From an uncultured Bacteroidota bacterium (GTDB taxonomy: Bacteria; Bacteroidota; Bacteroidia; B-17B0; Aurantibacillaceae), in NCBI GenBank assembly GCA_937873155.1, contig CALMVZ010000012.1:1-64000 (forward strand): a DNA stretch of 64,000 nucleotides, written 5' to 3'. Of this stretch, positions 18,964-53,868 are shown one piece after another (within the stretch, counting starts at the first letter, position 1; each line of letters starts with the position of its first letter). The position numbers and the translations under genes are program-made. The notes under the pieces are model-generated. The model was given only the letters and a program-made list of their open reading frames with translations. It did not search any database and was not told the origin of the DNA.

Positions 18964-21495
18964 ATGGCAGACGGAGAGAAAATTATCCCCATTAACATTG
19001 AAGATGAAATGAAAACGGCCTACATCGATTATTCGATGTCGGTAATTGTATCGCGCGCATTACCTGATGTACGCGATGGTTTAAAGCCGGTTCACCGCCG
19101 TGTACTTTACGGAATGTTAGAACTTGGATTGATGCACAACAGGCCCTATAAAAAAAGTGCCCGTATAGTTGGGGAAGTTTTAGGAAAATATCACCCGCAT
19201 GGTGATGCAAGCGTTTACGATACAATGGTGCGTATGGCCCAGGATTGGAGCTTACGTTACATGTTGGTTGACGGACAAGGAAATTACGGAAGTATCGATG
19301 GAGATCCTCCTGCAGCAATGCGTTATACAGAAGCACGCTTAAGAAAGATCGCGGAAGAAATTATTGCTGATCTTGAAAAAGACACTGTAGATTTCCGTCC
19401 GAACTTCGACGACTCATTAACTGAACCGACAGTAATGCCGACACGTATTCCTAATTTATTAGTGAATGGTGCATCAGGAATTGCAGTAGGTATGGCAACA
19501 AACATGGCCCCGCATAACTTAACAGAAATTTGTGATGCTTGTATCGCTTATATTGATAACCGTGACATTGATGTTGCAGGTTTAATGCAATTTGTAAAAG
19601 CGCCTGATTTCCCGACGGGCGGAACTATCTATGGTTTTGCAGGTGTGAAAGAAGCATTTGAAACAGGAAGAGGAAGAATTGTATTGCGTGCAAAAGCTAC
19701 AATTGAGACTGTAAAAGACAGGGAGAGAATTATCGTGAACGAAATCCCGTATCAATTGAACAAAGCGGAAATGATCAAAAAGACCGCCGAGTTAGTGAAT
19801 GAGAAAAAATTAGAAGGCATTTCTGATATCCGCGATGAATCAGACAGGGATGGAATGCGTATCGTTTACGAATTGAAACGTGATGCTATTTCGAATGTAG
19901 TATTAAACAATCTCTACAAATACACTTCTCTACAAACTTCATTCTCAGTAAATAACATTGCGTTAGTTGGCGGAAGGCCAATGATGCTGAATTTAAAAGA
20001 CCAGATCCATTATTTTATTGAGCACAGGCATGATGTGGTTGTGCGCCGTACAAAATTCGACCTGGCACAAGCTGAAAAACGCGCTCACATTTTAGAGGGA
20101 TTATTAATTGCGATCGATAATTTAGATAAAGTAATTAAGATCATCCGTGAAAGCGAAACGCCTGATATAGCCCGCGATGAATTAATGAGCAATTTCAGCT
20201 TAAGCGAAATTCAAAGCCGCGCTATACTCGACATGCGTTTACGCGCTTTAACAGGTCTTGAAAGAGATAAATTAAAAGGCGAATACGAAGAACTTAAAAA
20301 GTTAATTGATTATTTAACCAGTGTGCTGAACGATGAAGGCCTCCGTTACAAAATAATTAAAGAAGAAGTAGCTGAGATAAAAGAAAAGTATGGTGATGCA
20401 CGCCGAACAGATATCGTATTCTCAGGAGATGATATCAAAATGGAAGACATGATCGCTGATGAAGATGTGGTGATCACGATTTCTCACATGGGTTATATCA
20501 AACGTACTAACCTTGACGAATACAGAGCTCAGGGCAGGGGAGGAAAAGGCAGTAAAGGTTCTTCAACTCGTGAAGAGGACTTTATCGAACACATGTTCAC
20601 CGCTTCAACACATAACTATTTATTATTATTCACTGAAAAAGGGCAAGTCTTCTGGTTACGCGCGTTTGAAATTCCGGAAGGAAATAAAACAAGTAAAGGC
20701 CGTGCAATTCAAAATTTATTGAATATTCCTGCTGATGATAAAGTAAAAGCATTTATTAATGTTAAGAATTTATCGGACGATGAGTACATCAATAATAACT
20801 TCATTATCCTTTGTACTAAAGAAGGTATCATTAAGAAAACAACGCTTGAAGCATATTCTCGTCCGCGTGCAAGTGGAATTAACGCGATCACCATACGCGA
20901 AGGCGATGTTTTATTAGAAGCAGCTTTGACCAATGGTAAGAATGAGATCATGTTAGCAACCAAACTTGGAAAAGTTTGCCGTTTCAATGAAGAGAAAGTT
21001 CGTCCGATGGGAAGAAACGCATCCGGTGTGATCGGTATCGATCTTGCTGATGAAGAAGGCGACAAGAATGAAGTTATTGGCATGATCTGTATAGATAATC
21101 CAAGCGCTAACGTTCTGGTGGTATCTGAAAAAGGATACGGTAAACGTTCTGAGATCGAAGAATACCGTGTAACGAACCGGGGCGGTAAAGGTGTTAAAAC
21201 TATCAATATCACCGATAAAACAGGAAACCTCGTAGCTATTAAATCGGTTACTGATGAAAATGACCTTATGATCATTACCAAAAATGGTATTACCATTCGT
21301 ATGAATGTGAAAGACCTGAGGGTAATGGGTCGTGCAACGCAAGGCGTAAGGTTAATTAACATCCAGGAAACCGACGAAATTGCTGCTGTTACCAAGGTTG
21401 ATCACGAAGATGAGCCGGAGAATGAAGGAGGAGGAGAGGTTCAAAATGACGGGACGCCTGAAAATAATACACCAACGGGGGATATCACGCAATAA
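18964..21495 (+). CDS. gyrA: DNA gyrase subunit A
   Basis: 843 residues. The N-terminus has [21 protein letters not shown], and the catalytic tyrosine is Y121 in [10 protein letters not shown]. The GyrA box AQGRGGKG, which distinguishes gyrase from topoisomerase IV, is present at nt ~20527-20550 inside the C-terminal pinwheel (six-blade region ~505-815). The tail is acidic ([12 protein letters not shown]). In the quinolone region the sequence is HGDASVYD: Ala82 occupies the position of E. coli Ser83, as in mycobacterial GyrA. GyrA cuts and reseals DNA to introduce negative supercoils with GyrB, which is not in the window. It stands alone, divergent from clpC. Confidence 0.97.
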
Positions 21496-21594: not shown

Positions 21595-24459
21595 ATGAAA
21601 AAAAGCATCATTGCATCGATTTCGTTAAGTATTTTAGGCTTAACAAGTTTAATGGCTCAGCCTACACTGGTAGAGAAAGTAGAACCGCAAGCCGGTAAAC
21701 TGGTGATTCCATACGAAAAATGGAAATTACCGAATGGTTTAACCATCTTGCTCCACGAAGATCATTCTGATCCTGTGGTGAACGTAATGGTAACTTATAA
21801 GGTAGGTTCGAATCGCGAAGATATAGGCCGTTCAGGATTTGCTCACTTTTTTGAACATATGATGTTCCAGGGTTCTTTACATGTTGCAGATGAAGAACAT
21901 TTTAAAATGGTAAGTACCGCAGGTGGAAATATGAATGGTTTCACACAGGAAGATAAAACCGTTTATTACGAGACCTTGCCATCAAACTACCTTGAAATGG
22001 GTCTTTGGTTAGAAGCTGACCGTATGGGTTTCTTACTGGACTCTTTAACTACAAAGAAATTCGAGAACCAGCGTGATGCCGTAAAAAACGAAAAATCGCA
22101 GAACGTAGAGAACCAACCATATGCAATGGCGTTTGTTGAAGAGATCAATAAGGCTCTTTATCCTTCAAAGCATCCATACAGCTGGCCGGTTATTGGTTAC
22201 GTTGATGATCTGAATCGTGCTACAGTTGATGACGTGAAAGCATTCTTTTTACGTTGGTACGGACCAAACAATGCGATCTTAACTGTTTCAGGTGATTTCA
22301 ATCCGAAAGACGCATTAACTATGATCGACAAATATTTCGGAACTATTAAACCATGTCCTGAAGTAAAAAAATTACGCGTTCCGCCTGTTGTGATCCCAAC
22401 TGATAAATACACTGCTTATAAAGACAGAACATATTTTCCACTTAACTTACGTGTTTACCCTACAGTTCCGCAATACCACCGTGATGAACCGGCCTTAGAC
22501 CTTTTAGGTATGATGATGGGTGGAGGAAACAACTCTGTATTCTATAAGAACTTTGTGAAAAATGAAAAAGCTGTTCAGGCATCTGTTAATCACCGCGGAA
22601 AAGAATTATCAGGTGAATTCTCGATCCAGATCTTCGCCTATCCGCCTGAAGATTTCAACTTAGAGAAATTATTCACTGAGATCGACGAGAGCGTTAAGAA
22701 AAGCATAGATGATTTCGAAAAAACCGGAATTACTGATGAAGCGTTATCCCGTGCGAAATCGGAAGTTGAATCAGGTTTTTATTATGGTTTGGATGAAGTG
22801 TTCAATAAAGCTTCAACGATATCTGAGTGGGAGCGCTTATTAGGAAAGAGCTCTAACGTTTCTGAAGAGATCGACCGTTACAATAAAGTAACTAAAGAAG
22901 ATATCGCACGCGTATTCAATAAATACATCAAAGGTTCAGGTGCAGCCATCTTAAATACATATCCTATAACTAACCAAAAAGATTCAGTAAAATCTGTGAA
23001 TCCGTACGCAGGAATGGCAGGACCGTTAAGTCCTGAGGTTTTAGCATTGAAATATGCTCAGAATCCTGATAAATTTGACCGCGCCGCTCGTCCGGTTCCG
23101 GGCACCCCTAAAACAGTTAAAGCTCCTGAGTTCTTCCAGACATCTTTAAAGAATGGAATGAAAGTTCTGGGAACAAGTTCAACTGAAAGCCCGATCATCA
23201 CTATCAATATCAATCTTGAAGGCGGTACCCTTGCGTTATCTCCTGATCAGTACAAAAAGATGGGTATTCCTGAAATGTGTGCAGGGATCTTAAATGAAGG
23301 CACCAAGAATTACACCACCGAGCAAATGTCAGCCGAACTGGAAAAATTAGGAAGCTCTATCTATTTCAGTTCCGGAAAATATAATAATTCGATCAGTGTA
23401 TCTTGCCAGAAGAAGAACCTGGATGCTACATTAAAATTATTAGAAGAGAAGCTATTGAATCCAGGTTTCAACCCGGAAGATTTCAAGCGTGGAAAAAAAC
23501 AATATAAAGAGAGTATCAAAAACGATAAGACCAGTCCGAACACAATGGCAAGCAAAGCTTTTGCTCAGGCTATTTACGGTGCATCTTCCGTTCTTGGTAT
23601 GGAGCCAACAGCGAAATCTGTTGACGCTATCGAATTACAGGACCTGAAAGATTATTTCGCATCTGCTTATTCATCAGCAAATGGTAACATTGTTGTTGTA
23701 GGTGATATTAAAGAAAGCGAGATCCTTCCAAAATTAGAATTCCTGAATAAGATGTCGAGCAAACCTGTAAAAATGCAGCCTATACCTGAATCACCTGCTG
23801 CTTCCGGGCAACAGTTCCTGATCGTTGATAAAGTTGCTGCTCCGTCTTCGGTGATCACTATGGGATATCCTTCATTGAAATATGATGCAACAGGCGATTA
23901 TTTCAAGAACCAGATCGCTAACTTTATTTTCGGTGGTAATTTTAACAGCCGTCTGAATTTGAATCTGCGTGAAGACAAAGGTTATACTTACGGTATCTAT
24001 TCACGTTTCAACGGAAATAAATATACCGGAACATTCTCAATCGGTTCTTCCGTAAAACGTCCTGCTACTATTTTATCTTTAATGGAGATCACTAAAGAGT
24101 TCAATAAATTCGTAAATGAAGGTTTAAATGATAAAGATCTTGAGTTCACAAAGAATTCAATGCTGAATGTGGAAGCTTTACGTTATGAATCACCATACCA
24201 AAAAGCAAGCTTCCTTGGTAACATCGCCTATTATAACTTACCAAAAGATTATGTTACACAGCAAAACACAATTCTGAAGAACATCACTAAAGAAGAACTG
24301 AACGCACACATCAAGAAGAACTTTGATATGAGTAAAATGACAACTGTGATCGTTGGTGACAAGAATTATATTGAAGCAAAATTAAATGACGCGCTGAAAG
24401 ACAACAAGAACAAGGAAGCGTTAAACAATGTTAAGTTCAAAAAAATGTCTGTTGATTAA
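21595..24459 (+). CDS. Secreted two-domain M16 (pitrilysin-like) zinc protease
   Basis: 954 residues with signal peptide MKKSIIASISLSILGLTSLMAQ. The first M16 half carries the inverted zinc motif HFFEH (H84, E87, H88) and the distal glutamate near E166 (VKNEKSQN). The second half (~490-950, starting FQTSLKNGMKVLG) has the M16 fold without HxxEH and keeps the typical LREDKGYTYG pattern. Such fused pairs degrade peptides in the periplasm and form a closed chamber. A pair of TPR proteins follows 51 bp downstream and could be co-transcribed. Confidence 0.92.
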   Translation: MKKSIIASISLSILGLTSLMAQPTLVEKVEPQAGKLVIPYEKWKLPNGLTILLHEDHSDPVVNVMVTYKVGSNREDIGRSGFAHFFEHMMFQGSLHVADEEHFKMVSTAGGNMNGFTQEDKTVYYETLPSNYLEMGLWLEADRMGFLLDSLTTKKFENQRDAVKNEKSQNVENQPYAMAFVEEINKALYPSKHPYSWPVIGYVDDLNRATVDDVKAFFLRWYGPNNAILTVSGDFNPKDALTMIDKYFGTIKPCPEVKKLRVPPVVIPTDKYTAYKDRTYFPLNLRVYPTVPQYHRDEPALDLLGMMMGGGNNSVFYKNFVKNEKAVQASVNHRGKELSGEFSIQIFAYPPEDFNLEKLFTEIDESVKKSIDDFEKTGITDEALSRAKSEVESGFYYGLDEVFNKASTISEWERLLGKSSNVSEEIDRYNKVTKEDIARVFNKYIKGSGAAILNTYPITNQKDSVKSVNPYAGMAGPLSPEVLALKYAQNPDKFDRAARPVPGTPKTVKAPEFFQTSLKNGMKVLGTSSTESPIITININLEGGTLALSPDQYKKMGIPEMCAGILNEGTKNYTTEQMSAELEKLGSSIYFSSGKYNNSISVSCQKKNLDATLKLLEEKLLNPGFNPEDFKRGKKQYKESIKNDKTSPNTMASKAFAQAIYGASSVLGMEPTAKSVDAIELQDLKDYFASAYSSANGNIVVVGDIKESEILPKLEFLNKMSSKPVKMQPIPESPAASGQQFLIVDKVAAPSSVITMGYPSLKYDATGDYFKNQIANFIFGGNFNSRLNLNLREDKGYTYGIYSRFNGNKYTGTFSIGSSVKRPATILSLMEITKEFNKFVNEGLNDKDLEFTKNSMLNVEALRYESPYQKASFLGNIAYYNLPKDYVTQQNTILKNITKEELNAHIKKNFDMSKMTTVIVGDKNYIEAKLNDALKDNKNKEALNNVKFKKMSVD

Positions 24460-45819: not shown

Positions 45820-46824
45820 TCAGCGAGCCCAACGGACGATACATTTAGATAATAACCTGGCGCGACTGCCATCATACAGCTTACTCCATTTCGATTTTAA
45901 ATAAAAGAAATATGCTTTCGGTCCGAGATTAGTTATTCCACAAGCGTCGTACCATTGTTTGGCAAGGATCTTTTCAAAAACAGATTGATCAATGTACTTG
46001 ATCTTTCTATTTTGTTCCAGCATTTTACTGAACCAGAACGACAGTACAGCAAGATCCTTTAAAGAAGTGATGATCTGTGAATTTCCTAATAAGCAATGCA
46101 TTCTTAATTCTCTTTCAGTAAAACGGAAGCCGGCTCTTTCCAATAAAATTCTTCTCACTTTATTTCCATTCTCCATTTGTTCGTCACGGAATTGTCTGCT
46201 CACCTGCGAAGCATGTATCCTGTATTTTAACAAAATTTCAGGAATATCAGCGAACTTCGTTTTAAATAACAAACGGCTCCATAATTCATAATCTTCCGAA
46301 TGTTTGTACTCACTATTAAAATAAGGGCTTTCTTTTTTGATCACCGAAGAACGGATCATTAAAGCAGGATGCACAACAGAAGAATTAAACAACATCCATC
46401 CGGCTATCCAATCATGATCATGATGCGAGGTCAAAGCAATTTGTTTCCCTTTTCCGAAATGAATATAATCACTGCCGCACACGCCTACTTCCCTGTTCTT
46501 GTTCATGAACTCCACTTGTTTTTTCAATCTGTCAGGCAGACTAATATCATCTGCGTCCATCCGTGCAATGTAGTCACCATTGCAAAGATCAATCCCTTTA
46601 TTCAAAGTTTGAATTAAACCAAGATTAACGTCATTTTTAAAATAATTGATGCGGGGATCTTTAATGGATCTAATAAGTTCTTCAGAATTATCAGATGAGC
46701 CATCATTAATAACTATTAATTCGAAATTCCTGTAAGATTGTTTCAGAATGCTTTCAATGGAGTCTTTCACGAATCCACCCGCATTATAAACAGGCATTAA
46801 AACTGAAACAAGAGCTGAACTCAT
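45820..46824 (-). CDS. Family 2 glycosyltransferase
   Basis: 334 residues. GT-A start VSVLMPVYNAGGFVKDSIESILKQSYRNFELIVINDGSSD, then NLGLIQTLNKGIDLCNGDYIARMDADD with the DxD metal motif D90/D92 and KHSEDYELWSRLL. No membrane helices. Transfers sugar from a nucleotide donor, probably for surface polysaccharide. It follows mksB on the same strand after 74 bp, so read-through is possible, and a GT4 gene lies at the other end of the condensin operon. Confidence 0.9.
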   Translation of the reverse strand: MSSALVSVLMPVYNAGGFVKDSIESILKQSYRNFELIVINDGSSDNSEELIRSIKDPRINYFKNDVNLGLIQTLNKGIDLCNGDYIARMDADDISLPDRLKKQVEFMNKNREVGVCGSDYIHFGKGKQIALTSHHDHDWIAGWMLFNSSVVHPALMIRSSVIKKESPYFNSEYKHSEDYELWSRLLFKTKFADIPEILLKYRIHASQVSRQFRDEQMENGNKVRRILLERAGFRFTERELRMHCLLGNSQIITSLKDLAVLSFWFSKMLEQNRKIKYIDQSVFEKILAKQWYDACGITNLGPKAYFFYLKSKWSKLYDGSRARLLSKCIVRWAR

Positions 46825-46898: not shown

Positions 46899-49800
46899 TT
46901 AAGCCTCCACCTCTGTAACAATACTAGGGAAGATACGTACGTTACCGGAGTCCTCCTTACGGAACTGGTATGTATAGCGGTAATGGCTTTCCAAACCACT
47001 CTTGTTCGGGAGACCATTGATCATCATAATATTTCTGTTCTTCGCGAATTTTAATAATTCACGTAAGTAGTGGGCAGAGATCTGACCTACCTCGTCAATG
47101 ATACAGTGTACTTTAAAATCAGAACTGCTCCTGTGAGAAGATTCTTTAATGAATACATGTAACAAAGTGATGTAGATAATAGCTTTCACAAGGATATCCG
47201 TTCCGGTACTTCCGATACTGTCGATCTTATGCGTCCATCCGGTTTCGTTCATACCTTCTTTAATATTGAACTTCAATTCGAACAGGTCTTGCAAACGGAT
47301 CTCTTCCTGGTCTTGCTCTTTAATTGCAGAACGTAATTGCTCTAACAATCTTACAGCACGTGTACTGATCTCGCGCTTTGAACCTGTAGCAAAATCGGTA
47401 TTAAATAACCCTTCACTGTACACTAAGCCATGTTCCTCACGGAATTCTTCGATCTTCTTCAGCAAACGGTAAACTTTATTATCCGATTCTTCGATCTTGA
47501 TCTTGATGAACTCGATAAGCTTACTTTCTTCGAACTCAGCTTTCTTAAAGTCTTCTGCGATCAAAGTAATGATGTGCTGGATCTTATCTTTTTGTCCGCT
47601 TAGCTCTTTTACTTTTGTAGCGATACTGTCGGTTACTAAACCAATTTGGGTTGCAGTTTCTGCCAACGACATCTCGATCTTATTCTCATTGATGAATGAA
47701 CGTAAATTCTGGGCAAAACGTTCGTATTCACCTTGCGTGGCATCATTACGGATGATAAAGTTAAAGTGGTTATCAAATCTGAATTTACCAGCATATTCAT
47801 TCACATAACGCTGGAATGCAGTGTACTCTTCATTAAAGTGAGATTCGTTCTTTAACATCTGAGTACACAATTCCATGATATTATGATTGGTGCGCTTCGG
47901 TTCAGCGCGGTCAATGATATCAGCATGTTTAGTAAATACCGGTGTATCGCGGAAATTGGTAGTATAAAAATTGATCCCGTTGTTGAATTCGATCAACTCT
48001 TCATCAAAAGCACGTTTTTGCTTATTCAACTCCATACGCTTCAGGTTGAATTTACGCGTAGCTTCTTCCATTTGACCCGCCATGTCATTCGAAGTTTTTA
48101 CGAACTCTTCTTTTTTCTGGATCAGGTCAGGTAATTTATCAAAGGTCTCACGCTTATCCTTTAAATAATCGTTTACCACTTGCTGGTATTGTTCGATCTC
48201 TTTTAAGGCTTCCTGAATTTCTTTGATACGGTTGTCGATCTGCTTGATCTGCTTACTGTCAACACCTTTAGCTTTGAAATTCGTTTCTTTCTCTTTCGAT
48301 AATTGTTCTTCTTTATCTTCGAATTCCTTTACCTGGTTCTTCTTCTCAACTTCCAGCTCAGAGATCTCTGTTTCCTGTCTTTCTTTCAATTCAGCGATAC
48401 GCTCTTCGTTATAAACGCGCAAACGTTCCAATTGAACATTGAAATCAGTCAAAACAGTATTTTTCTTTTTGTTTAGAACAGAAAGCTCTTCTTCAATTAA
48501 ATTCAACTTTGCACGGTTTCCGCTTAACGAGGTTTCAATTTCAGTACCTGCTCTTTGCTTCCACTCTTCTAACTCTTCTATTAATTTTTGCTCGCGTTTA
48601 TCAGCTAACTCTAACGAATAAGCTAAAACTTTCACGTCTTCTTTTAACTCACCTAATTGCTTACCGAAACGGTCAGCAGCCAACATTTTTTCTTCATTGT
48701 TTGCAACCTGGAATTGATTCAAAGATTCTTCAAGGTCTTTGATCTGGGCCAAACGCTCATTCTTTTCGTGCTGGTATTCTTCGATACTCTTAGAAACCAC
48801 TTCAACCTGGCCTAATTCTAATTGAATGCCATATAAAGTTTTAGAAGCTTCTTCCTTGAACTCCGGTGTAAGATCAGTTCTGAATAATAATTTCTCATTC
48901 ACAACCTTACCGATCGTAGTGTGCCAATCTTTTACGTGCTTTTCTAAATAACCATAGAACGCATCATGCTGAACATTTAACTTATCTTCAATTTCTTTGA
49001 TCTCGGTTTTGATCTTGATGATCTCACCATTGATCTTATTGATCTGGTTACTTAATGAGGTCTTTAATTTCAACTCCATCGCTTCCCACTCACGTGTTAA
49101 AGTTGCAACCATGTTCGTCTTGATAGCGCGCTCACTCTTGTTCTTATAATTCACAGCGCGCAATTCAGCCAGCTCAGTTTCCAAACCTTTTATCTCAGCT
49201 TCATAGAAACGGGTGTTACGGATAACTTTCTCTTCCGATTTTAATTCATTGAACTCGATCTGCTTTGCTGTAGTTTCCGCTGTTATTTCTTCAATAGTCT
49301 CTTCACGTTTTGCTTTTAACTCAGTGTCTTTTTTGTTGTATTCGTTCTTCTGTAATAATTGTAATTCGTTATAGTGATTGAATACTTCCCCTGTCTTCGA
49401 ATTGATCTTATTGATATAAGCACTCTTATCATTACGTAATTGCTCGATCAACGATGAATACTTCTGTTCAATACTTGATACGTTAGAAGTTAATGAATCA
49501 TATTCACGACGTGCAATATTTAAGTCGACCTGTAATTTTTCACGCTCTGCGTTCTTTTCAACAGCTTGCTCAATATTTTTTTCTTTGTACTCTTTTAATT
49601 TTTTGTTTGCGTCACGAATAGTACGGTCGTAATAACCTATCTCCTCGCGGATATCTTTTTGCTTTTCTTCTAAATTGGTTTTGAAAGTATCATGTGCTTC
49701 GATGAGTTGCTCTAATTCCTCTTCCTTCTGTTTGGCGGCTTCACGTATCGATTCATTTTGAGTTTCAGCGAAACGAAGGCTGCTTCCTAATTTATCAGCA

Positions 49801-50582
49801 AGATCCATCTGGGTTCCTTTCAACATGTGAACCTGGTCGTATTTCTTATCGATCAATTCAACCAGTTGTCCGCTTTCTTTCTTTAAAAAAGTCTCAATAT
49901 CCTGGTATTTTTCATTGAACTGGCGTAGCTGACGTTCTACCTGTTCTAATTTGATACTTGAATTCTCGGTTGTTAAAGAGTTAGCGATAAAATCTTTAAT
50001 AAAACGTGAATCGATACTGCTCTTGGAACTTAAGAATACATTGGTGATCGATTTAGGAATGTTCTGGTATTTTTCGTTACCTTTTAATAAATGGAATTTC
50101 GATAATTGCTTATCAGTTTCTGTCCCGTAAATGATATTCCTGTAACGTTCGAAAGTATCGATCTGGTTACTGATATAAATACCGCGTTTTTCAAAACCAC
50201 CGATAACTTCTTTTATCTTCATCGCCTCATCATTAGCATTCAGGAAGAAATCCGGGTTATAAGGAGCATCAAAAAAACGGAATACTAATTTATTGTGGCG
50301 GTAAACCATTACACAGAAAGCTGAATCTTCTGTGGTGATCTCATAAACCAAATACGAATTCTCGAAACGGAAATAGTGTTCCTCAAATGTTTTTTGTGAT
50401 TGAGCGATCCCTAATCCACGGCTGTTAGCGCTGTAAAAGAATAATATCGCACGCTGCAAAGATGTTTTTCCGTAATTGTTGGTACCAACGAAACAGGTAT
50501 TCCCGCACAACTCAATATCCGCGTATTTTACATTCGTAATATTGATCTCAACGATCCTGTTCAATATTCTGCAATTTTCCAT
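46899..50582 (-). CDS. mksB: SMC-like ATPase of an MksB/JetC (condensin) complex
   Basis: 1227 residues. Head N-half with Walker A G33-TNNYGKT-S (K39), about 750 residues of coiled coil (~230-980) with a hinge-like break near 560-600, and head C-half with a signature-like SIGSTGTDILVKAIIY and Walker B CIIDEVGQ (D1163, E1164), then MMINGLPNKSG. This is the MukB/MksB/JetC layout (wide head, long coil). It is third in the operon mksF-mksE-mksB. Acts as a DNA loop-extruding or plasmid-sensing motor with its kleisin (MksF) and KITE (MksE). The nuclease/topoisomerase partner MksG/JetD is missing from both flanks. Confidence 0.85.
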   Translation of the reverse strand: MENCRILNRIVEINITNVKYADIELCGNTCFVGTNNYGKTSLQRAILFFYSANSRGLGIAQSQKTFEEHYFRFENSYLVYEITTEDSAFCVMVYRHNKLVFRFFDAPYNPDFFLNANDEAMKIKEVIGGFEKRGIYISNQIDTFERYRNIIYGTETDKQLSKFHLLKGNEKYQNIPKSITNVFLSSKSSIDSRFIKDFIANSLTTENSSIKLEQVERQLRQFNEKYQDIETFLKKESGQLVELIDKKYDQVHMLKGTQMDLADKLGSSLRFAETQNESIREAAKQKEEELEQLIEAHDTFKTNLEEKQKDIREEIGYYDRTIRDANKKLKEYKEKNIEQAVEKNAEREKLQVDLNIARREYDSLTSNVSSIEQKYSSLIEQLRNDKSAYINKINSKTGEVFNHYNELQLLQKNEYNKKDTELKAKREETIEEITAETTAKQIEFNELKSEEKVIRNTRFYEAEIKGLETELAELRAVNYKNKSERAIKTNMVATLTREWEAMELKLKTSLSNQINKINGEIIKIKTEIKEIEDKLNVQHDAFYGYLEKHVKDWHTTIGKVVNEKLLFRTDLTPEFKEEASKTLYGIQLELGQVEVVSKSIEEYQHEKNERLAQIKDLEESLNQFQVANNEEKMLAADRFGKQLGELKEDVKVLAYSLELADKREQKLIEELEEWKQRAGTEIETSLSGNRAKLNLIEEELSVLNKKKNTVLTDFNVQLERLRVYNEERIAELKERQETEISELEVEKKNQVKEFEDKEEQLSKEKETNFKAKGVDSKQIKQIDNRIKEIQEALKEIEQYQQVVNDYLKDKRETFDKLPDLIQKKEEFVKTSNDMAGQMEEATRKFNLKRMELNKQKRAFDEELIEFNNGINFYTTNFRDTPVFTKHADIIDRAEPKRTNHNIMELCTQMLKNESHFNEEYTAFQRYVNEYAGKFRFDNHFNFIIRNDATQGEYERFAQNLRSFINENKIEMSLAETATQIGLVTDSIATKVKELSGQKDKIQHIITLIAEDFKKAEFEESKLIEFIKIKIEESDNKVYRLLKKIEEFREEHGLVYSEGLFNTDFATGSKREISTRAVRLLEQLRSAIKEQDQEEIRLQDLFELKFNIKEGMNETGWTHKIDSIGSTGTDILVKAIIYITLLHVFIKESSHRSSSDFKVHCIIDEVGQISAHYLRELLKFAKNRNIMMINGLPNKSGLESHYRYTYQFRKEDSGNVRIFPSIVTEVEA

Positions 50583-50618
50583 GTTTCTGTATACTTGTTT
50601 CTAGTTTCTGTTGTTCGA

Positions 50619-51227
50619 TTAATTGTAAATGATCCCGCCGCCACTATTGTTCTCTTCCCCGCTCTCTTCGTAAATAGCGATAGAATTGATAAGATCAAGC
50701 AGATAAGCATAAGCATCCATCACTTTATAGCTTTCTGTTTGTTCGTCTTCCAATTCTAAGAACGAATCTCTCGCCATCAGGTCACAGATATCACGTACTT
50801 TGTTCAATAAAGTTTCGGAACGGTACATCGGGATCTTTTGTAATTTTTGCTTCAAACGGACGTTCGCGTTACATTCTTCCGAAATTTCGCTCGGACGGAA
50901 ACGTGAGCCGATAGTGATCTTGTTATCCATACTCGCGAAAAGGTCAATTATATCGATATAACGCTCGAAGGTCTCAAGTTTTTTCTCGATGATACTGTTC
51001 GCTTCACTCGTTTTCGAAAAATAGAAATAATTATTCCCTCTCTCAATATTGTAACGGATCACATTGAAATACGCCTGTAAACGGTCAAAATTCTCCGGGT
51101 TGTTAATGATATCGTACAAACGCCCCATGTTATCTCGTGCTCCATTACTGGAAATAAAATGTCCACGCGCCATAATGGCGAAAATATCGTGTGTTTGCTT
51201 CGGTAATCCGTAATCTTCTGCTGTCAT
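50619..51227 (-). CDS. mksE: MksE/JetB-like KITE subunit
   Basis: 202 residues from ATG 51227 (MTAEDYGLPKQTHDIFAIMARGHFISS). The frame is open further up, but that part only translates the CCCGAAAC intergenic repeat (NPKPETRN), so it is rejected. Helical/winged-helix pattern: GRLYDIINNPENFDRLQAYFNVI, NNYFYFSKTSEANSIIEKKLETFERYIDIIDLF, RSETLLNKVRDICDLMARDSFLELEDE. Size and position between mksF and mksB match MksE. Binds the kleisin and DNA. Assignment rests mostly on gene order and general pattern. Confidence 0.78.
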   Translation of the reverse strand: MTAEDYGLPKQTHDIFAIMARGHFISSNGARDNMGRLYDIINNPENFDRLQAYFNVIRYNIERGNNYFYFSKTSEANSIIEKKLETFERYIDIIDLFASMDNKITIGSRFRPSEISEECNANVRLKQKLQKIPMYRSETLLNKVRDICDLMARDSFLELEDEQTESYKVMDAYAYLLDLINSIAIYEESGEENNSGGGIIYN

Positions 51228-51229
51228 AC

Positions 51230-51260
51230 TATTTCGGGTTTCGGGTTTCGGATTTCGGGT
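51230..51260. repeat. Tandem TTTCGGGTTTCGGG words between mksE and mksF
   Basis: CTATTTCGGGTTTCGGGTTTCGGATTTCGGGTTGG-type short tandem units (7-bp TTTCGGG) directly upstream of mksE. The same word forms inverted repeats at 15961-16017 and direct copies at 57535-57560. A length-variable leader repeat could influence mksE expression. Confidence 0.6.
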
Positions 51261-51327
51261 TGGCAAATTGCTTACCTATTATCCTTATCCATATTATTTT
51301 AAATTCTTAATTCTGCATTCTTAATTT

Positions 51328-52575
51328 TTATGCTGCTTTCTTTTTCTTTTTTCCTTTTTCGCTGTCTTCTGTAACCGGTAAGATCACAGTATAACCCAAG
51401 CGCTTTTTCTTTTCGCCTACTTCGTATTCGAAATAATTCAATCGGTATCTGAAATCTAATTCTTTCTCGTATTCCATCGCTATCTCAACGAATAACGATA
51501 AACGATCTTCAAATTTCACTTCGCCTATTGCTTTCGGGAATTTATAGTCCATCAGGTATTCGAACAAGTTTGATTTTTTCTGAGCCAGGAAACGATCTAC
51601 CAGTTTCTCGGTATCCATTTTGATCTGGTTATCGATGAGTTTATCCTTGAAGTTGCTGGCCATTTTACCTGCCATGCCCCTTGCCATTAAGCGGGAAATT
51701 TTATATTTCTCAGCAATCCGTTTACACAACACATGCCCGTCATCAGTAACTAAAAAGTCGAGTGCAATTTTTGTACGCGGACCTTTCACGCCATTGAAAC
51801 GTAAAGGTTTTACTTCCCTTACAATTTCGTTGAAGTTAGTACGGAAATGCAACGCGCCATGATCTTTTACCTCTTTCAATTTTTGCGCTTTCACGTACAC
51901 ATCCAATTGGAACTGAATCTTGTTGATGAAATCGGTAATGTCTGTTTGAATTTCAATCAGGAAGTCTAAGTTCTCAATTAAATTCGCCTTTAACGAGTTT
52001 ACAATTCCATACAATTCAGTATCGTTGGTCATGCTGAACAAACTTCTTGTTTCAGTGATAACTTCTTCTGTTTTCTGAATGAAATCGATGATGGTATCAC
52101 GTTTCTGGCGGTAATCTTCCAGTTTCTGGATTTTGATCCTGTAATTACTTTCGTTCTTGTAAGTGTCATCTACATTCTTCTGAAGCTTGATGATCTCGCG
52201 TGACAAAGCAATGTTGATGCGTTTTAAATATTTTTTTATGCTGCGTAAAAAGCGGTGTTCGTGAACTTCCTGGTAAAAACGGATGTGACGTTTTAGTTCA
52301 TTGATATAATCGTTTATGAAACCCGGAGTTACTTCACCGATCTCCATGAAATCTTCGAACATCGCAGTTACGGCATCGTTCAAACTAACAATACTTTCGT
52401 ATTCGTAAACAAGATCAAGAGAGCGTAATCGCTGGTACTGGTCGGCCGAGAGATCTTCGCGCGCGAGCAATTCGTTGACCGTTACATTTTCACGGTTAGC
52501 GAACAAGAATTCAACTACAGCACGATTGTGGTAAAGCTGGGATAATATGTCTTTTACATTGACCTGTAATGCCAT
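51328..52575 (-). CDS. mksF: MksF/JetA-like kleisin subunit
   Basis: 415 residues, soluble. N-terminal winged-helix-like region (ILSQLYHNRAVVEFLFANRENVTVNELLARED), a long central helical domain (~80-260 with LKRHIRFYQEVHEHRFLRSIKKYLKRI) and a C-terminal helix-turn region (KISRLMARGMAGKM), ending in a lysine stretch. First gene of the operon, 100 bp before mksE; this layout and size match MksF/JetA (MukF-like kleisin). No single diagnostic motif is known to me, so the call relies on the SMC gene in the same operon. Confidence 0.78.
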   Translation of the reverse strand: MALQVNVKDILSQLYHNRAVVEFLFANRENVTVNELLAREDLSADQYQRLRSLDLVYEYESIVSLNDAVTAMFEDFMEIGEVTPGFINDYINELKRHIRFYQEVHEHRFLRSIKKYLKRINIALSREIIKLQKNVDDTYKNESNYRIKIQKLEDYRQKRDTIIDFIQKTEEVITETRSLFSMTNDTELYGIVNSLKANLIENLDFLIEIQTDITDFINKIQFQLDVYVKAQKLKEVKDHGALHFRTNFNEIVREVKPLRFNGVKGPRTKIALDFLVTDDGHVLCKRIAEKYKISRLMARGMAGKMASNFKDKLIDNQIKMDTEKLVDRFLAQKKSNLFEYLMDYKFPKAIGEVKFEDRLSLFVEIAMEYEKELDFRYRLNYFEYEVGEKKKRLGYTVILPVTEDSEKGKKKKKAA

Positions 52576-52731: not shown

Positions 52732-53868
52732 TCAACACCTGTTATATAATTCTAACACCCTGTTGATAAATGTAGGCCAGAGGTATTTTGTTTTCTCGAG
52801 TTTTAAATTCCCGGTAAATTCATTTTCCCTGTTATTCTCAAAATAATCGATAATGCTCTCTGAAATCTGAGCTGTTTCTATTGGCACAGTATACCCTATC
52901 TTCTTGTGCGGTACTAACTCCGACAGCCCTCCGACATCAGTCACCAGCATTGGTTTTTCGTAATAATAACCTACCATGGTGACCCCGCTGTTTGTAGCAT
53001 TCCTATACGTTTGTGCCACTAGGTCAGAAGCACAGAAATAATATCTTACATCCTCATTAGGTATGAACTGCGAGTGAAAAATAACCGAATCCTTGAGCCC
53101 GTTCTTCTCAATTATATCGAGGTAAGGCTGTTTATCCTCATAAAATTCACCCGCCACCAATAGTTTCAGGTTCATTTTTTTGATCTTTTCATTAGCCATC
53201 GCTTCCAATAAAATATCAAGGCCTTTATATTTCCTGATCAAACCAAAGAATAAGATCACTTTATCGTTCGGGGAAATATTCAATTTTTTACGCGCTTCTT
53301 CCTTACTTACAGCTGAACCATAAGTTTCGTACATCGGGTGTGGCGAATACACTTTTTTATCTGTAGGTGTGAAAACAGAAATATCGTTAAAAACAGCCTT
53401 ACTCATTGTAATAAAACCATGACAAGCATTTACAAAATATTTTGTGAAGGGCTTATCTCCCGCTCTTTTTTCGTGTGGAATAATATTATCAGTAAGAGCG
53501 AGGATTTTAATATTAGTTCCTTTTCTTACCAATCTTCCAATAGTCCCTAAACATGGACCAAAGAATGGTAGCCAATAACGAAAAATGATAAAATCAGGCT
53601 TTTCCCTTTTGATAAAACGTGCCACACTGAACCAATTGAAAGGATTAACCGTATTGATCAAAGTATGGATCCTGATATCTGACGGTGCACTTCCGCTTGT
53701 TTCGTATTGAGAGCTGCCGGGAAATAAAAAATTCGGGTATTGTAATGAATAAGAAATGATCTGGGCGTCATGTCCCATCTTATTGAACTCACGGCAAAGA
53801 TTCTCATTGAATTGAGCCGGTCCGCCCCTTAAAGGGAAACCAGGACCTATGATAAATACTTTTGCCAT
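52732..53868 (-). CDS. Family 4 glycosyltransferase
   Basis: 378 residues. N-terminal FIIGPGFPLRGGPAQFNENLCREF (GT4 acceptor domain), GFITMSKAV, then NDKVILFFGLIRKYKGLDILLEAM, LLVAGEFY and a C-terminal NSGVTMVGYYYEKPMLVTDVGGLSELV, the ExxxxG-like nucleotide-sugar region. Cytoplasmic retaining glycosyltransferase, donor and acceptor unknown. Its upstream region holds the palindromic repeat array 53926-54521. Confidence 0.9.
   Translation of the reverse strand: MAKVFIIGPGFPLRGGPAQFNENLCREFNKMGHDAQIISYSLQYPNFLFPGSSQYETSGSAPSDIRIHTLINTVNPFNWFSVARFIKREKPDFIIFRYWLPFFGPCLGTIGRLVRKGTNIKILALTDNIIPHEKRAGDKPFTKYFVNACHGFITMSKAVFNDISVFTPTDKKVYSPHPMYETYGSAVSKEEARKKLNISPNDKVILFFGLIRKYKGLDILLEAMANEKIKKMNLKLLVAGEFYEDKQPYLDIIEKNGLKDSVIFHSQFIPNEDVRYYFCASDLVAQTYRNATNSGVTMVGYYYEKPMLVTDVGGLSELVPHKKIGYTVPIETAQISESIIDYFENNRENEFTGNLKLEKTKYLWPTFINRVLELYNRC

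Follow-up and report, generated by a model that had tools for sequence, protein, structure and literature searches.

Within a 64,000-nucleotide stretch from an uncultured Bacteroidota bacterium (assembly GCA_937873155.1, contig CALMVZ010000012.1, positions 1 to 64,000; hereafter, the window), three consecutive open reading frames (ORFs) at 46899-52575, all on the minus strand and ordered mksF-mksE-mksB, appear to encode the kleisin-like, KITE-like, and SMC (structural maintenance of chromosomes)-like subunits of an MksBEF complex. Our results make it quite likely that this is a housekeeping, nuclease-free MksBEF and probably the sole condensin of its Bacteroidota order (B-17B0). We favor this reading because the complex is near-universal in the order, no Smc is detectable there, and its genes are under strong purifying selection. 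In this model, MksB dimers would be closed by the MksF kleisin, aided by MksE, and ATP would power the capture of DNA and the extrusion of chromosomal loops, a role that Smc-ScpAB or MukBEF fills elsewhere; segregation may well require it. A preliminary description of this DNA had recognized the three minus-strand genes, which the ORFs bear out, and had left three options for them: a housekeeping condensin, a Wadjet defense system borrowing a distant nuclease, or a variant with another effector. The first of these is the one that the evidence below supports.

The window's order and family are made up of the same 87 genomes. With fragments included, a profile search recovered MksE in 77 of these, and a profile built from the MksF alignment recovered the MksF type found in the window (hereafter, core-type) in 76; counting partial genes, one or the other was present in 79 of the 87; of the 62 that are at least 90% complete and no more than 5% contaminated, 61 had one or both. 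Specifically, the MksE found in G210 is only an accessory one, with a core MksF present, while G231 has a core MksB and a partial MksE at a contig end. Among 75 core loci drawn from the named-genome collection (best 80 of 104 confirmed stretches), 61 retain all three genes in the F-E-B order on a single strand, and another 13 are truncated within or next to them. The one remaining locus, in G260, has its genes apart and all full length (frames of 413, 206, and 1227 amino acids for MksF, MksE, and MksB), with MksF on contig C34, MksE at about 195 kb on C3, and MksB at about 98 kb of the 222,309-base record L145, which is as long as C3. Further, mean column identity was 84% for MksB (16 rows), 74% for MksF (35 rows), and 74% for MksE (32 rows). 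The ratio of nonsynonymous to synonymous substitution rates (dN/dS) against the congener L069 was 0.025 for MksF, 0.030 for MksE, and about 0.019 for MksB (residues 1-720), values that are rough, given that dS exceeded 1. These patterns point to strong purifying selection on MksBEF and to genes that are more than chance ORFs.

The order seems to have no other recognizable condensin. Smc was found in none of the 87 genomes (TIGR02168, E up to 1e-30, with the best seven candidates per genome scored), and the same search was positive in 11 of 14 named control genomes. In the window's own genome, all 16 SMC_N matches lie in frames of at most 949 amino acids, and MksB is not among them. ScpB was matched in one of the 87 genomes (G231), as a 135-amino-acid fragment beside unrelated ORFs at the end of contig C7 (L237), which we discounted because the contig is probably chimeric there. 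Where MksBEF stands, Smc-ScpAB is represented by no Smc and by this single, probably chimeric ScpB; ScpA was not searched for. By these profiles, MksBEF is the only condensin recognized in the order.

The operon also appears to be nuclease-free, as far as the profiles reach. The JetD_C profile, which was positive in Corynebacterium glutamicum alone among the 14 named genomes, had no matches in the window's own genome (4.85 Mb in 39 contigs, with a completeness of 100), nor had a profile of the DUF7281 nucleases. This agrees with the preliminary description, which had reported an operon lacking JetD/MksG, and extends that result from the neighborhood of the genes to the whole genome. We further compared nuclease references (JetD, DUF7281 proteins, and divergent toprim-motif proteins) by tblastn with the whole window, where the sole match, at 23050-23421 (E 0.01, 25% over 124 amino acids), falls inside an M16 peptidase gene and was rejected as chance. 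The same references, at E up to 0.1, matched nothing in the 75 core loci, 54 of which extend at least 3 kb past mksB; the others end less than 3 kb beyond it.

Nuclease-bearing relatives of the core operon do exist, both within and outside the order. JetD_C was matched in 7 of the 87 order genomes and a DUF7281 nuclease in 3, with G281 in both groups, for nine genomes in all, and a second, divergent MksE, distinct from the core one, is found no more than about 5 kb from each of these nucleases. The accessory operons observed in the order are of three kinds: canonical Wadjet (L093-L098), MksF-MksE-MksB-DUF7281 (L087, L088, in which mksB is split, and L089), and an operon with a protein of about 310 amino acids carrying toprim motifs beside its own mksB (L091, in G247). 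For the second MksE of G238 (L092), the contig ends in mksB. The proteins of L087-L089 share the gene order of the window and are 26-27% (MksF), 36-40% (MksE), and about 28% (MksB) identical to its proteins; the DUF7281 four-gene operons are the nearest relatives of the core that we found. In a search of 395 genomes of the class with a profile of core and DUF7281-operon MksF, 24 were positive, 15 in the order and nine outside it, in eight families; the match was strong in eight of the outside genomes and weak in one (L276). A DUF7281 gene adjoins mksB in six of the nine outside loci (L268-L271, L273, and L275, that of L269 being a fragment at a contig end), and the contig of L272 ends within mksB. 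The Pfam DUF7281 model scored above its cut-off in L087, L089, L268, L270, L271, and L273, and below it in L275. These downstream proteins, of about 285 amino acids, keep residues in common with JetD (ExN, GDxDxxG, and QE), which we take to be toprim-type motifs, and on the L268 operon PADLOC gave weak JetC1, JetD1, JetD3, and JetB2 matches. Together, the four-gene operons represent a candidate undescribed Wadjet subtype.

Several other loci showed related arrangements. At L099:4864-10955, L091:4857-10997, and L100:7652-13774, MksF-MksE-MksB is followed by a protein of about 310 amino acids with ExN and DxDxxG motifs; these proteins fall below the Pfam cut-offs and are likely further divergent forms of JetD. 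At L240:5779-10954 (G186), we observed MksE, a putative MksF with no Pfam match, a 263-amino-acid toprim-motif protein, and a short SMC-like protein of 887 amino acids; the nuclease gene lies between those of kleisin and SMC and matches DUF7281 weakly (E 0.0011). L105/L240 was left out of the MksF alignment as too distant. At L274:3753-9246 (G403), an MksBEF of the DUF7281 clade has no adjacent nuclease and is possibly a second independent loss or a decayed system. Finally, L238:6852-9800 (G211) holds a DUF7281-type MksF remnant; upstream of it, and at L087:1-1429 before the intact operon of G281, lie similar pairs of genes that, judged by eye, resemble a nucleotidyltransferase toxin-antitoxin module.

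Trees of the MksB head domain bear on how the core came to lack a nuclease. The core formed one clade in both trees, with support of 100/96 in the first and 100/100 in the second, from which x_L240 and x_L100 (long branches) and core_L079 (differing start), all kept in the first, had been removed. In the second tree, the core and the DUF7281 operons together split from the other MksB rows at 100/99. The tree sample had no nuclease-free outgroup such as MukBEF or Pseudomonas aeruginosa MksBEF. It is simpler to suppose that the core lost a nuclease, because the more distant operons examined also carry a toprim-type nuclease beside mksB: JetD in L093-L098, L101-L104, and L106, and a toprim-motif protein in L091, L099, and L100. 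This suggests that the core descends from a nuclease-bearing, Wadjet-like ancestor. The converse, that the core is primitively nuclease-free and the DUF7281 relatives gained their nuclease, strikes us as unlikely, since fewer changes are required in this sample if the nuclease is ancestral; it draws some strength from the first tree, in which the DUF7281 operons (L274 included) group as a separate clade next to the core (84/77). In the second tree they are paraphyletic with weak support, and an approximately unbiased (AU) test of their placement as sister or paraphyletic to the core was undecided (p 0.501). On balance, and with slightly better than even confidence, we propose that a plasmid-cutting, Wadjet-like complex lost its toprim nuclease and came to serve as the order's only condensin. 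This would be a second independent takeover of a chromosome by an SMC complex of the MukBEF type, while the relatives that kept a nuclease would persist as accessory operons, three of which (one with a split mksB) lie in genomes of this order.

The lack of Smc seems to extend beyond the window's order. In a sample of 198 genomes of the phylum, which included a single genome of that order, Smc was found in 171, MksE in 28, and MksB in 29 (wide MksB profile, E up to 1e-8); this profile overlooked G186, a genome in the sample whose SMC-like protein (L240) is short. Besides the window's own genome, the listed Smc-less genomes (19, with 7 more beyond these) belong to families f4, f5, f7, f8, and f10 of the same class; G166 (f10) is also not among the Smc-positive rows. 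Of those listed, G012 (f4) and G166 (f10) have MksB and the others have none by the wide profile; thus the genomes of f5 (14), f7 (1), and f8 (1) yielded neither Smc nor MksB by TIGR02168 and the wide profile. The window's order is the sole Smc-less group for which we could show MksBEF throughout. One could argue from the f5, f7, and f8 genomes that life without a recognized condensin seems possible, as also for two Bacteroidetes reported to have no condensin homologue (PMC10197239, partial text), and that MksBEF is accordingly a specialized accessory SMC complex (one that silences plasmids, takes part in repair, or keeps transposons in check, without cutting) in cells whose chromosome is organized by nucleoid proteins or another complex. 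We regard this as improbable, given that near-universal retention, dN/dS of about 0.02-0.03, and the survival of the dispersed G260 genes fit an indispensable function better.

Still less probable, to the point of being very doubtful, is a Wadjet in which these genes act as JetABC, draw on a nuclease from another locus of the genome, and still restrict plasmids. JetABC and MksBEF are alike in architecture (PMC10586767, partial text), nine of the 87 order genomes do have a JetD-type nuclease and G247 its divergent toprim-motif protein (L091), and the profiles could miss such divergent proteins, as those of L091, L099, and L100 fall below the Pfam cut-offs. A borrowed nuclease is nevertheless disfavored, because 78 of the 87 order genomes, the window's own included, have no JetD_C or DUF7281-type match and, in the other nine, the nuclease sits in its own accessory operon. 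The third option of the preliminary description, another effector, found no candidate: the genes adjoining the core operon vary from genus to genus, which argues against any effector linked to it. A patchy defense island is ruled out by the presence of the core in 79 of the 87 genomes.

The subunit assignments are of unequal firmness. MksB matched PF12128 (DUF3584) at E 7.5e-67, and its ATPase motifs, noted in the preliminary description, are intact and invariant in the 16-row alignment, the GSTG and IIDE motifs being what we take to be the ABC signature and Walker B. MksE matched PF21980 (MksE) at E 5.3e-30 (105.4 bits, cut-off 27); its ORF reaches a TTG (50619-51266), and alignment with 16 relatives makes the ATG at 51227 the likely start. 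Thus, of the families that the description had anticipated, MksE was matched, DUF3375 and DUF4194 were not, and the SMC protein belonged with DUF3584. MksF had no Pfam matches up to E 0.5. Its structure model, from 35 sequences of the order (mean predicted local distance difference test, pLDDT, 73; predicted template modeling score, pTM, 0.43), has a helix-strand domain at the N terminus, a strand-rich one at the C terminus, and long helical bundles. The top seven Foldseek rows all came from MukF or MukBEF entries, the best at E 1.0e-3 (prob 0.99), with 1t98 alone named as MukF and the others assumed to be MukF from their length; no row fell below E 0.001 by the tool's count. VIA-align gave a MukE-MukF entry Z 13.4. 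This fold evidence is supportive, not conclusive, and MksF is probably a MukF-type kleisin, based on fold, gene order, and the assignments of MksE and MksB, with no sequence match. No match that we accepted places either small protein outside the kleisin and KITE families, and neither jetD nor mksG was detected in the operon. In PDB sequence searches, the MksB profile matched nothing up to 0.001, the MksE profile matched one designed protein, which we took as chance, and the MksE structure model was unusable (pLDDT 45).

In addition to the undecided AU test and to an argument for nuclease loss that is one of parsimony only, several points weigh against our reading. First, eight order genomes had neither MksE nor core MksF (G215, G252, G253, G254, G259, G261, G263, and G266); seven are at most 84% complete or more than 5% contaminated, leaving G263 (92% complete), the sole negative among the best 62, unexplained. 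In G258, the sole MksE match is a fragment below the Pfam cut-off and too short to assign. Second, the profiles have limits: the DUF7281 nucleases carried by G231 and G250 escaped JetD_C, SMC_N is blind to MksB, so that a very divergent SMC could go unseen, and the Smc and MksB counts come from scoring no more than the top 3 to 7 candidates in each genome. Third, MksF has no profile similarity to JetA and matched no PDB chain by profile up to E 5, and its fold match, at E 1.0e-3, is on a helical protein for which unrelated helical bundles reach a similar Z (up to 13.1). Fourth, the loss of Smc may predate the arrival of MksBEF, because some other families of the same class in the phylum sample lack Smc and show no MksB. 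Finally, 73 of the 75 core loci are titled as metagenome-assembled genomes and the other two come from assembly AM_1111, so that culture work is not yet within reach.

Coordinates of the window operon, its flanking genes, and the four-gene DUF7281 operons
Feature	Position	Strand	Basis
MksF, probable kleisin subunit, 415 aa	51328..52575	-	ORF, fold model, gene order
MksE, KITE subunit, 202 aa from ATG at 51227	50619..51227	-	PF21980 match
MksB, SMC-type ATPase, 1227 aa	46899..50582	-	PF12128 DUF3584 match
MksB Walker A, GTNNYGKT, residues 33-40	50463..50486	-	G33, G38, K39, T40 invariant in 16-row alignment
MksB ABC signature (presumed), GSTG, residues 1124-1127	47202..47213	-	invariant in 16-row alignment
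MksB Walker B (presumed), IIDE, residues 1161-1164	47091..47102	-	invariant in 16-row alignment
GT4 glycosyltransferase, flanking, outside complex	52732..53868	-	Pfam
GT2 glycosyltransferase, flanking, outside complex	45820..46824	-	Pfam
Four-gene DUF7281 operon	L087:1495-7767
Four-gene DUF7281 operon	L089:6799-13067
Four-gene DUF7281 operon	L268:4336-10622
Four-gene DUF7281 operon	L271:8442-14765
Four-gene DUF7281 operon	L273:3456-9769
Four-gene DUF7281 operon	L275:339-6628
Four-gene DUF7281 operon	L270:2595-9876
Four-gene DUF7281 operon	L088
Four-gene DUF7281 operon	L269

The two glycosyltransferases that the preliminary description had placed at the borders were both recognized by Pfam. By synteny, a relative of the GT4 gene adjoins MksF in L067-L071 and L075 and lies beyond MksB in L072, and the GT2 gene flanks the operon at L067 and L068 but does not do so at L070; the contigs of L069 and L071 stop inside mksB. 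Around the operon we found short repeat families alone, with two to four copies each. PADLOC gave weak matches of Cas5_IIId to MksF (E 9e-4) and of AriA, LmuB, and JetC1 to MksB, and these, together with NCBIfam matches of window proteins far below cut-off, were rejected as ATPase, coiled-coil, or chance matches. A gene for subunit A of gyrase or topoisomerase IV (PF00521) lies at window 18964-21495, about 25 kb from the operon. Some core loci carry inserted genes. Specifically, among the 17 of the 75 that were examined for a long mksE-mksB gap, 15 (L122-L126, L129, L131-L133, L148, L151, L160, L165, L174, and L175) have, on the same strand between these genes, a protein of about 335 amino acids that is secreted by the look of its start. 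L079 and L084 have similar-sized ORFs at this gap with no Pfam match, and L073:9548-10897 is a Fic-domain gene (PF02661) between mksE and mksF. In L239 (G240), the core mksBEF appears frameshifted in many places, probably owing to a noisy assembly.

What is new here is the order-wide fixation of MksBEF without Smc, together with the nuclease-bearing relatives; MksBEF itself, and the substitution of MukBEF for Smc, were already known. A MksBEF-only lineage of Bacteroidota was not reported in the titles and abstract openings of the literature searched, from which subscription papers fell outside. Hinge-less SMC proteins in Actinobacteria are the subject of PMC12153180 (partial text). Our results bear on the puzzle of condensin-less Bacteroidetes posed by the partial text of PMC10197239, in that one order has MksBEF throughout and other sampled families still show none. 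They also bear on the notion that defense SMC complexes were the source of MukBEF and of P. aeruginosa MksBEF, which is treated as speculation, with the origin unresolved, in the partial text of PMC10586767. Because a fixed nuclease-free complex shares its class, and sometimes even its genome, with relatives that bear a nuclease, a switch from defense to condensin could be dissected by subunit swaps and by the addition or removal of the nuclease.

The window's complex can be set against three known systems. As in Wadjet (MksBEFG, or JetABCD), there is a three-gene architecture with a DUF3584-type SMC; unlike Wadjet, no JetD was detected and the distribution is near-universal, not patchy, and the PADLOC Jet models do not recognize the window proteins (JetC1 on MksB at E 0.026, no match to MksE, and no Jet match to MksF). 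The DUF7281 operons differ from the core in turn, carrying a downstream nuclease gene and being scattered through the class. Second, the MksBEF of P. aeruginosa has a demonstrated chromosomal role, as proposed here, but it accompanies Smc-ScpAB, whereas Smc is not detectable in this order; further, MksBEF is sporadic in general, whereas here it is fixed in an order (PMC7485682, partial text). Third, the arrangement recalls Escherichia coli MukBEF, in which SMC, KITE, and kleisin subunits stand in place of Smc-ScpAB, MukBEF having apparently replaced the latter in enterobacteria (PMC10586767, partial text). The MksF model resembles MukF, while the window's MksB belongs with DUF3584, and a Pfam scan up to E 0.5 gave no Muk model for any of the three proteins. 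Given that the window's order belongs to a different phylum from that of E. coli MukBEF, it is apparently an independent case.

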